Assembly (NCBI RefSeq): GCF_900101095.1 | Contig: NZ_FNFM01000004.1 | Location: 62,001-126,000, forward strand | Direction: 5' to 3' | Source: Actinopolyspora mzabensis | GTDB lineage: Bacteria; Actinomycetota; Actinomycetes; Mycobacteriales; Pseudonocardiaceae | DNA: 64,000 nucleotides | Shown: positions 45,580-48,405 of the stretch, one piece after another | How positions within the stretch are numbered: the stretch's first letter is position 1 | Layout: each line of letters begins with the position of its first letter | The notes under the pieces: model-generated | What the model saw: only the letters and a program-made list of their open reading frames with translations | Told to the model about the DNA's origin: nothing | Database searches by the model: none | Position numbers and translations under genes: made by a program

Positions 45580-46650
45580 TCACCGTCGCCGGAGTTGTTC
45601 GGTGCCGTGCGGTACCGGTACTCGATCCAGCAGTTGGCCGATCAGATCGGCTCCGCTCTGCCGCGCCGCCCGGGCCTCGCCGCTGAGTACCAGGCGGTGT
45701 GCGAGTACCGGCACGGCCACCGCCTGGATGTCGTCGGGAACGACGAACTCCCGCCCTTCGATGGCGGCCTGGGCCCGCGCGGCGTGGATCAGCTGCAGCG
45801 TGGCTCGGGGGGAGGCTCCCAGCCGCAGTTCCGCCAGATCACGAGTGGCCGCCACCAACTCGATCGCGTAACGGCGCACCTCGACCGCGACGTGGATTTC
45901 GCTCACCGCCGCCAGCAGCTCGGCCACTTCGGCGGCGTCGGTGACGGGCTCCAGCTTGTGCAGCGGATCGGAGGAGGCACGTTCGTCGACCATCGCCAAC
46001 TCCGCCGTGGGATCCGGGTAGCCGATGGAGATCTTGCAGGTGAACCGATCACGCTGTGCTTCGGGGAGGGTGTAGGTGCCCTCCAGCTCGACCGGGTTCT
46101 GGGTGGCTATGACCATGAACGGGATCGCCAGCTCGTAGCTGTGCCCGTCCACGGTTACCTGGTTCTCCTCCATGCATTCCAGCAGCGCCGACTGGGTTTT
46201 CGGCGAGGCCCGGTTGATCTCGTCGCCGACCACGATGTTCGCGAAGACCGGTCCTTCCCGGAACTCGAACTTCTCGGTGCCTCGGTTGTAGATCGAGACC
46301 CCGGTTACGTCGCTCGGCAGCAGGTCCGGGGTGAACTGGATCCTGCTGGCGGTGCAGTTCACGGAACGTGCGAGTGCCTTGGCCAACGATGTTTTGCCGA
46401 CCCCGGGCACGTCCTCCACGAGCAGATGTCCGCGCGCCAGCATTGTCACCATGGCGAGCCGGACCACCTCGGGCTTCCCGACCAGCACGCTTTCCACGTT
46501 GGTGGTGATGCGCCGCAGCGTGTCGTGCATCCACTCGATGGGGAGGTCGTGCGGGACGTCCGTCGTGTTTCCGCCCATCGTTCCCCGCGTCGTCCCGCTG
46601 CCGACCGTGGTGGGCGCGGCGCCGCTCGCTGTGTTCCTCTCCGACGTCAA
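45580..46650 (-). CDS. moxR: MoxR family AAA+ ATPase
   Basis: The 356-residue AAA+ protein has Walker A GVGKTS (residues 83-88), Walker B VVGDEINRASPKTQSALLECMEENQVTVDG (sensor 1 region nearby in VIATQNPVELEGTYTLPEAQRDRF) and the lid domain SPRATLQLIHAARAQAAIEGREFVVPDDI. MoxR ATPases act as chaperones for vWA/DUF58 partners. The TTG at 46650 has GGAGG (46656-46660 on the minus strand), which decides the start; open frame further upstream is in the promoter region shared with the dcw operon. It leads the operon moxR-DUF58-tgpA. Confidence 0.92.
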   Translation of the reverse strand: MTSERNTASGAAPTTVGSGTTRGTMGGNTTDVPHDLPIEWMHDTLRRITTNVESVLVGKPEVVRLAMVTMLARGHLLVEDVPGVGKTSLAKALARSVNCTASRIQFTPDLLPSDVTGVSIYNRGTEKFEFREGPVFANIVVGDEINRASPKTQSALLECMEENQVTVDGHSYELAIPFMVIATQNPVELEGTYTLPEAQRDRFTCKISIGYPDPTAELAMVDERASSDPLHKLEPVTDAAEVAELLAAVSEIHVAVEVRRYAIELVAATRDLAELRLGASPRATLQLIHAARAQAAIEGREFVVPDDIQAVAVPVLAHRLVLSGEARAARQSGADLIGQLLDRVPVPHGTEQLRRR

Positions 46651-46948
46651 CAAACCTCCAGATACCGTTGCGCCCGGATCGTCACAGCCGGACGTGCTGC
46701 CACGGGTGAACCTGTGCCACTGCGGTCGGGGCGGCTGCGGACGTGCGCGGTGGTGCTGCCACGCACCTTGCCGGAAGTCTCTCAGACCCGATGTAAGTGG
46801 TGAGTGTGCGTACAACTCGCACCAACGAGGTCCGCGCCGTGTCCCGAAGCCCGCGTGACGACGGAGGGCTCTCGCCGGCGAGCCGCGCGGCAGCGGCGAA
46901 CCCCGATCCGCTCCTCGCACGGAGCGCCGGGTGGCCCGGCGTTTCCGG

Positions 46949-46990
46949 TTGACGGCGAAAAGGGGTGGGGTAATGTGGCCCCGAGTGGGG
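46949..46990 (+). promoter_or_regulatory. Promoter with MraZ-type triple box upstream of rsmH
   Basis: TTGACG (46949-46954) and TAATGT (46971-46976) are separated by 16 nt, a good primary-sigma promoter. TGGGG (46966-46970), TGGCC (46976-46980) and TGGGG (46986-46990) repeat with an exact 10-bp period, matching the TGGGN-N5 direct repeats reported for MraZ binding in other bacteria. The middle box is degenerate. The boxes overlap the -10 and the likely start site, where bound MraZ would act. It would drive the rsmH-led division operon. Confidence 0.72.
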
Positions 46991-46991
46991 A

Positions 46992-47022
46992 GTCCGATTT
47001 CGCCGTTCCGGCGGAATCGGAC
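46992..47022 (+). promoter_or_regulatory. Leader hairpin after the rsmH-operon promoter
   Basis: GTCCGATT (46992-46999) with AATCGGAC (47015-47022), a T-G pair, and CGCC/GGCG give a 13-bp stem with a 5-nt loop right after the predicted transcription start. It may stabilise or regulate the long leader. Comparison with the Rfam mraW RNA motif, known upstream of mraW in actinobacteria, is the natural test. Confidence 0.5.
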
Positions 47023-47382
47023 AGGCGGGGCGATCGAGCCGTGCGGGATGCGCGCCGGTGGTTCCGTGCGGGGTGGCTTCCGGGATTCCCGGGCGAATCG
47101 GCCCGGTTCCGGTCCGCAGGGGGTGGTTTCCGATGAGTCTCGTCGGTCGTGATCACGGGTTCGGAGACGTCGGAGAACGGTACTCGGCGGTGGTGCCGCA
47201 CCGCGTTCCGCCTCGTGAGTTCCTGTCCTCGGGCGGTCTCCGGTGTGTTGCTCCGGTGATCGAGTCGGACGGCTCGGGGACGGCGGGGAGGACGCGATCG
47301 CTTCGCCCGGGGTCATGAAAGTTCATCGTAGCTCGCCGCCCCGCCCGGCATGATCCGATCGGAACAGGAAGGAAAGGCCAGC

Positions 47383-48405
47383 GTGCCAGACAGCCCCGAA
47401 CCCGCTGCCGAGCCCGAGCGGGAATTCGCCGCGGGGAAGCCCGATCCGGAAACGGCACAGCAGCGGCATCTTCCCGTCCTGTTGGAACGAACCGTGGAGT
47501 TGTTCGAACCCGCGTTGCGGGAGCGCCGTACCACGGTCTTGGATGCCACGCTCGGGATGGGGGGCCACACCGAGGCGCTGTTGCGCGCGTTTCCCGGGGT
47601 GACCGTGATCGGCGTGGATCGTGACCCCGAGGCCCTCCGGCTGGCTCGGCAGCGTTTGGCGGACTACGGAGAGCGTGTTCGGCTGGTGCACGGGGTGGAC
47701 GATCAACTGGAGGAAATCCTTACCGAACAGGGGGTGTCCGAACTCGACGGAGTCCTGTTCGACCTCGGGGTCTCCTCGTTGCAGCTCGACGAGTCCGAGC
47801 GCGGTTTCTCCTACGCCAGGGATGCGCCGTTGGACATGCGCATGGACACCACCACCGGTCGGACAGCCGCCGACGTGCTGAACACCGCTTCGCGTGCCGA
47901 ACTCATCCGGATACTTCGGGAGTACGGCGAGGAGAAGTTCGCCGCCCGCATCGCGTCCGAAGTCGTGCGGGCTCGTGAGGTCGAGCCGTTCGGCAACAGC
48001 GCGCGGTTTGTCCGGTTGATCTACGACTGTGTTCCCGCCGCGGCCAGGCGAACCGGCGGCCACCCCGCCAAACGGACGTTCCAGGCGCTTCGTATCGAGG
48101 TCAACGGCGAGCTCGAGGTGCTGCGACGGGCTCTTCCCCAGGCCGTCGACGCGCTCAGCGGCGGTGGCCGCATCGTGGTGCTGTCCTACCACTCGCTTGA
48201 GGACCGGGCCGTCAAACGGGTCTTCGCCGAACGGGCCAAATCGCGTACCCCGGTCGACCTGCCGGTCGAACTGCCCGGGCACGGACCACAGCTGCGGCTG
48301 CTCACGCGTGGTGCCGAGTTCGCCGACGAGACGGAGGCGGCGAACAACCCCAGAGCGAGCTCGGTGCGGCTGCGCGCGGCCGAGCGGATCGAGGAGACGC
48401 CATGA
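47383..48405 (+). CDS. rsmH: 16S rRNA (cytosine-1402-N4) methyltransferase RsmH
   Basis: RsmH methylates C1402 in the 16S decoding centre and heads many dcw clusters. The 340-residue protein has [13 protein letters not shown], the SAM motif [50 protein letters not shown] and the C-terminal [24 protein letters not shown] 47383 is preferred to ATG 47350 because AGGAAGGAAAGG lies 5 nt upstream. The stop overlaps ftsL by four bases (ATGA). mraZ is missing upstream. Confidence 0.96.

Follow-up and report, generated by a model that had tools for sequence, protein, structure and literature searches.

The window, a 64,000-nt stretch of DNA from Actinopolyspora mzabensis, a member of a salt-loving actinobacterial genus, contains the head of a dcw cluster in which rsmH (mraW; 47383..48405, forward strand; PF01795, E 9.7e-108) is the first gene behind the promoter, with a penicillin-binding transpeptidase and a Mur ligase encoded farther downstream. 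The promoter, on the same strand, consists of a -35 element, TTGACG (46949..46954), a 16-nt spacer and a -10 element, TAATGT (46971..46976). Promoter spacing makes the A at 46984, 8 nt past the -10 element, the likely transcription start. The leader that would begin there (46984..47382, forward strand) contains neither mraZ nor a detectable mraW RNA according to profile and covariance searches, and near its end carries a purine-rich ribosome-binding region, AGGAAGGAAAGG (47366..47377, forward strand), that is largely conserved in the genus. The GTG start codon of rsmH at 47383 lies inside GTG(C/T)CAGA, a sequence present in all ten Actinopolyspora genomes. Upstream and divergent is a MoxR-type AAA ATPase gene (45580..46578, reverse strand; PF07726); a homologue is found upstream, on the opposite strand, at all ten loci of the genus and at 11 of the 20 from the family, the latter spanning at most 1.5 kb upstream in this comparison.

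Three TGG boxes run through the promoter on the forward strand: TGGGG at 46966..46970, which adjoins the -10 element, TGGCC at 46976..46980 and TGGGG at 46986..46990. They are designated boxes 1 to 3; comparison with mraZ-bearing loci places a further box, box 0, at 46956..46960 on this strand, where the window now reads CGAAA. A first-pass annotation of the window, made from its letters alone, had called the same promoter and the same boxes, and its coordinates are confirmed. All the boxes of the three-member array that it described are found, but a fourth, upstream box, lost genus-wide and invisible from the window, is missing from that description. Within the window the three-box pattern alone is weak evidence, since its single match compares with 0.14 expected and 14 of 100 shuffles contain at least one match; the form TTGAC...TAATGT of the pattern is rarer (0.02 expected, 2 of 100 shuffles). 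What lifts the signal above chance is its conservation: GTTGAC-N10-GGTGGGGTA occurs with zero mismatches exactly once in each of ten Actinopolyspora genomes, at the rsmH promoter. Just 5' of the -35 element, at 46937-46948, stands CGGCGTTTCCGG, with nine of twelve columns unchanged in the genus and an insertion in one genome (G006); this is perhaps an upstream promoter element or a site for some other protein.

The first-pass annotation had recognised here an operator of the MraZ type, and this is borne out by relatives that carry mraZ at this place behind the same promoter and boxes. Their promoters run in the order TTGAC, box 0, box 1 (GTGGGGTA), -10, box 2, box 3, with TGG every ten bases, and the four MraZ-type boxes sit at exact 10-bp spacing directly upstream of mraZ. 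From 99 loci (20 from the family plus 79 further ones) we retained 66 on the -35 element and box 1 alone, to avoid selecting for the answer, and set aside the 33 lacking that form, including 12 Streptomycetaceae loci. Among these 66 mraZ-bearing loci, in which at least three genomes are counted twice, TGG stands in phase at box 0 in 64, at box 2 in 66 and at box 3 in 64. The MraZ box of E. coli, as used in the first-pass annotation, reads TGGGN, letters that a search of the open-licence literature found printed in no paper. The middle box of the window, TGGCC, had been taken for a decayed one; this view falls, as the same letters form the middle box of mraZ-bearing G036, G013, L069 and L075.

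Outside Actinopolyspora, 26 of 27 genomes of the family match a pattern of four GTGG boxes, as do 11 of 24 from the same order; none of the ten Actinopolyspora genomes does. Of its 45 matches, 37 precede mraZ, each in a different genome; the remaining eight are found at other places in G019, G020 and G034, and six of these eight overlap within one tandem repeat. Read backwards as a control, the pattern gave 36 matches in 14 of 61 genomes; such an array is therefore not rare in genomes of this kind, and it is the location that counts. The array is single-copy in 34 of the 37 relatives that have it in full, and each of the 37 has one directly upstream of mraZ. This distribution suggests that loss of mraZ costs mainly control of the dcw cluster itself.

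No mraZ (PF02381) is found in any of the ten Actinopolyspora genomes. By comparison, mraZ is present in 51 of 51 genomes outside the genus in a first sample and, in a second, in 237 of 239 other genomes of the family, the two misses being one genome that is 83% complete and one assembly in 900 contigs. The Actinopolyspora genomes are about 99% complete, and five of the nine relatives of the window's genome are in one or two contigs. A lineage-specific MraZ profile, built from nine sequences and run against whole genomes at E<=10, had no match in nine of the ten and only one poor match, with an internal stop, in G009 (E 1.1), nothing credible. Applied in three forward frames to the ten rsmH leaders, the same profile found no intact or broken mraZ, which upholds the annotated absence of the gene between promoter and rsmH. 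A relic of mraZ within the leader is likewise rejected, because the leaders reached at most 0.5 bits, against 3.5 for the best first-order Markov shuffle. The Actinopolyspora rsmH sequences form one group in the rsmH tree (98/97 support; 10 of the 15 rows), and a single loss of mraZ therefore suffices. A search of the open-licence literature returned no paper on mraZ loss in Actinopolyspora or on overlap between an MraZ box and a hairpin.

In 15 of 20 family loci the structured mraW RNA (RF01746) lies between mraZ and rsmH at the curated score, the only threshold at which the other five were searched, while a covariance model at E<=5 detected it in none of the ten Actinopolyspora loci (L021-L030) and gave no match in the window between 46500 and 47700. 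Presence in relatives together with this lack of detection indicates that whatever stood between promoter and rsmH has been lost or replaced. The distance from box 1 to the conserved GTG of rsmH varies from 287 to 609 nt across the genus. Indels are frequent in the alignment of the genus leaders and their lengths are not always multiples of three, and neither of two leader ORFs compared with Pfam matched a family; a coding leader is thus not supported, and the first reading of the leader as apparently non-coding stands. Taken whole, the 401-nt leader is no more stably folded than its shuffles (z -0.88). Its unusual length in front of a dcw cluster is a likeness to Rhodobacter sphaeroides, where the dcw 5' leader reportedly comes with an sRNA, UpsM.

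Across the genus, the boxes have fared very differently from one another. Box 0 is lost in all ten genomes and box 1 is intact in all ten. Box 2 keeps TGG in four (G000, G004, G007 and G009) and reads TGA in the other six. At box 3, three genomes (G000, G003 and G008) have TGGGG in phase, three (G004, G007 and G009) have it displaced by 1 or 2 bp and four (G001, G002, G005 and G006) read CGGGG. Only the window's own species, among the ten, has three boxes in phase, and the exact 10-bp period noted at first holds for the window's genome but is absent from the three members of the genus closest to it. For the most part, then, close relatives have not conserved the three boxes, an outcome that the first-pass annotation had named as refuting its view and that favours reading them as a relic over an operator on which MraZ still acts. 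The description of operator and promoter as kept can be upheld for the promoter and box 1, and not for the other boxes.

Changes were counted on the rsmH topology, along which the neutral length, from 121 fourfold sites, is 2.67. The columns of TTGAC and GGTGGGGTA show no change and the -10 hexamer shows one, while each column of box 0 has one to three. GGTGGGG at box 1 is unchanged in seven of seven columns and GGGG of box 3 in four of four, in all ten genomes, which is above the conservation of fourfold sites. Only 17% of fourfold sites escaped change, and seven unchanged columns at box 1 are therefore unlikely by drift (about 5e-6 if columns are independent). Since box 1 and the GGGG of box 3 exceed fourfold conservation, not all letters of the boxes drift freely.

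With box 0 gone, boxes 2 and 3 eroded and the promoter kept, the locus very probably represents an mra promoter that has been kept and an MraZ operator that is decaying, following a genus-wide loss of mraZ; the first-pass suggestion that the boxes are a relic gains support from the absence of mraZ and from the erosion within the genus. In the ancestor of Actinopolyspora, mraZ would have disappeared from the head of the dcw cluster together with the mraW RNA that followed it. The old mra promoter would have been preserved for its role in driving rsmH and the genes for division and cell wall beyond it, and the four-box operator woven through it, deprived of MraZ, would then have decayed, with box 0 disappearing genus-wide and boxes 2 and 3 mutating or slipping out of phase in most species. 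Box 1, abutting the -10 element, may have been held unchanged by promoter function or by some other factor. As far as sequence comparison can tell, the boxes presumably bound MraZ in the ancestor, the promoter is probably active, and the dcw genes would now be without MraZ control.

The mraZ-less Streptomycetaceae provide a second lineage for comparison. In the twelve Streptomyces and Kitasatospora loci examined mraZ is absent, as it is genome-wide, and ten of the twelve keep TTGAC(T/G)-N16-TAGNNT upstream of rsmH. A three-box array occurs in none of these loci. In the ten promoters (L092, L097, L099, L101, L108, L109, L115, L121, L123 and L125) box 1 is gone, from which it follows that a promoter of this kind needs no box-1-like sequence in general; GTGGAG or GTGGGG stands near the place of box 3 in nine of the ten. 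A weak match to the mraW RNA, 28.1-48.6 bits and hence below the curated score of 50, is found in 11 of the 12 loci, the two weakest having E-values of 0.036 and 0.11. Loss of mraZ by Streptomycetaceae as a whole is rejected, as 51 of 121 genomes there give a match, which by our reading of the E-values is strong in 46; this patchy distribution means that mraZ loss itself is not unusual. The retention of box 1 in Actinopolyspora, set beside its absence from these Streptomycetaceae promoters, counts against the decay reading, as do the three boxes in phase in the window's own species.

One explanation for that retention is that box 1, perhaps along with box 3, has passed to another DNA-binding protein, which still uses it to regulate the dcw genes. 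The zero changes of box 1 over the neutral tree length would fit such a takeover. So would the confinement of the combination of -35 and box 1 to rsmH, where alone it occurs without mismatch, two one-mismatch matches lying elsewhere in the ten genomes; a sequence so confined is no common promoter type. Box 1 touches the -10 element, however, and its role in the promoter could be enough to preserve it. The search for a binding protein, which covered MraZ, yielded no candidate. In Dietzia the mraZ promoter is bound by MtrA (PMC9602371), and a direct repeat of the MtrA type was therefore looked for; in its literal form it is absent from 250 nt upstream to 150 nt downstream of box 1 in all ten genomes. 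On balance a takeover appears improbable.

Still less likely, by a good margin, is that the G-tracts are kept as a DNA G-quadruplex, a structure proposed for the mraZ promoter of S. aureus (PMC11796246). Only 0.5% of all 45-nt stretches in the window match, in absolute value, the best 45-nt G4Hunter score of its promoter (1.04), and G001, G002 and G005 carry GGGG-C-GGGG-T-GGGG with a fourth GGGG further on, scoring 1.75-1.82. The other seven members of the genus score 0.75-1.35, not above 19 mraZ-bearing relatives (1.0-1.55), the four-tract pattern matched a single sequence, from a relative, and the number of tracts differs between clades. With high scores confined to those three genomes, a G-quadruplex is not supported as a general cause.

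The first-pass annotation had also proposed that an MraZ encoded elsewhere still acts here. Boxes 1 to 3 in phase in the window's species would suit this idea, but at the level of sequence it is refuted: PF02381 is missing from ten genomes about 99% complete, the lineage profile finds nothing credible even at E<=10, and the array is eroded in sister species. A remote MraZ is accordingly rejected as scarcely credible. That the boxes match by chance and have nothing to do with MraZ, as the 14 of 100 shuffles with three TGG(G/C) boxes might allow, is very unlikely: 66 mraZ-bearing loci share the -35, box 1 and -10 in this same register, and four-box arrays there stand immediately before mraZ.

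An unsought finding concerns predicted hairpins near the 5' end of the mRNA, a placement that follows from the likely transcription start. In the window, a 14-bp hairpin is predicted in the leader just behind box 3 (46992..47022, forward strand), both in the 401-nt fold and in a local fold. It appears in the local fold of five of the six members of the window's subclade, the exception being G008, and one of its pairs is changed on both sides among four aligned members of the subclade. A different, shorter hairpin, of 7 bp, is predicted in mraZ-bearing loci, where box 3 itself (GTGGGGC) could base-pair, over a loop of 7-9 nt, with an arm farther downstream. Among 62 distinct four-box rows, all seven pairs can form in 38 and at least six in 46, whereas with shuffled right sides the corresponding counts are 1.2 (maximum 5) and 10.8 (maximum 20). 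The family accounts for nearly all of this, with all seven pairs in 37 and at least six in 42 of 45 Pseudonocardiaceae rows (44 rows within L031-L103 plus L083, a Pseudonocardia), compared with one and five of the other 18 rows. When the arm is reversed as a control, at least six pairs still form in 27 of 44 rows, and G-rich and C-rich composition therefore explains part of the pairing.

In one fixed register, 79.6% of cells pair across 35 aligned rows, against 39.6-60.0% when the register is slid, a comparison inflated by relatedness of the rows. Only one of 500 shuffles reaches the covariation score, but 48 of 500 reach the count of pairs in which both sides have changed; relatedness inflates these tests as well, and the score is biased upwards because the outgroup row L096 was added after its paired changes had been seen. 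Among the family rows, paired changes are clearest in L045; L096 shows them as well, and variants of the right arm in mraZ-bearing Pseudonocardiaceae mostly keep the pairing. In one Actinopolyspora clade (G001, G002, G005 and G006) a U-rich arm is available for pairing with the GGGG of box 3, and an extra G in G006 is matched, by our reading of the alignment, by an extra C. This hairpin belongs to the best fold of G002 and G006 and is absent from the best fold of G001 and G005. We offer tentatively, as a doubtful model, that the last MraZ box may have served two purposes, as DNA operator and as left arm of an mRNA hairpin, and that the RNA role, not MraZ, might decide which of its letters outlive the regulator; the box-3 pairing in that clade and the GTGGAG or GTGGGG of nine mraZ-less Streptomycetaceae promoters would be in keeping with it.

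According to PMC8475190, which cites Eraso 2014 and Fisunov 2016 for the MraZ-regulated dcw promoter of E. coli and Mycoplasma, MraZ acts as a repressor both in E. coli and in M. genitalium. Those systems share with the present one their repeated boxes ahead of dcw genes, and the mraZ-bearing relatives of the window have their array upstream of mraZ; the window differs in having no mraZ, rsmH as first gene and a reduced array, and the relatives in having arrays of four TGG at 10 bp. Natural loss of mraZ is described for longitudinally dividing Neisseriaceae, where PMC9395523 links it to cell shape and states that mraZ deletion lowers expression of dcw genes in Neisseria elongata. Both there and in Actinopolyspora, mraZ was lost in one lineage from the head of a dcw cluster otherwise present; the Neisseriaceae account deals with cell shape and dcw expression, the Actinopolyspora case with the fate of the operator.

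The locus thus offers a natural experiment, in which an operator decays after loss of its regulator while a promoter within the same 40 bp stays under selection. In Actinopolyspora neither mraZ nor mraW RNA is detected, while mraZ-less Streptomycetaceae keep weak matches to mraW RNA; these are two lineages in which the contributions of MraZ and of mraW RNA to control of the dcw cluster may be probed.
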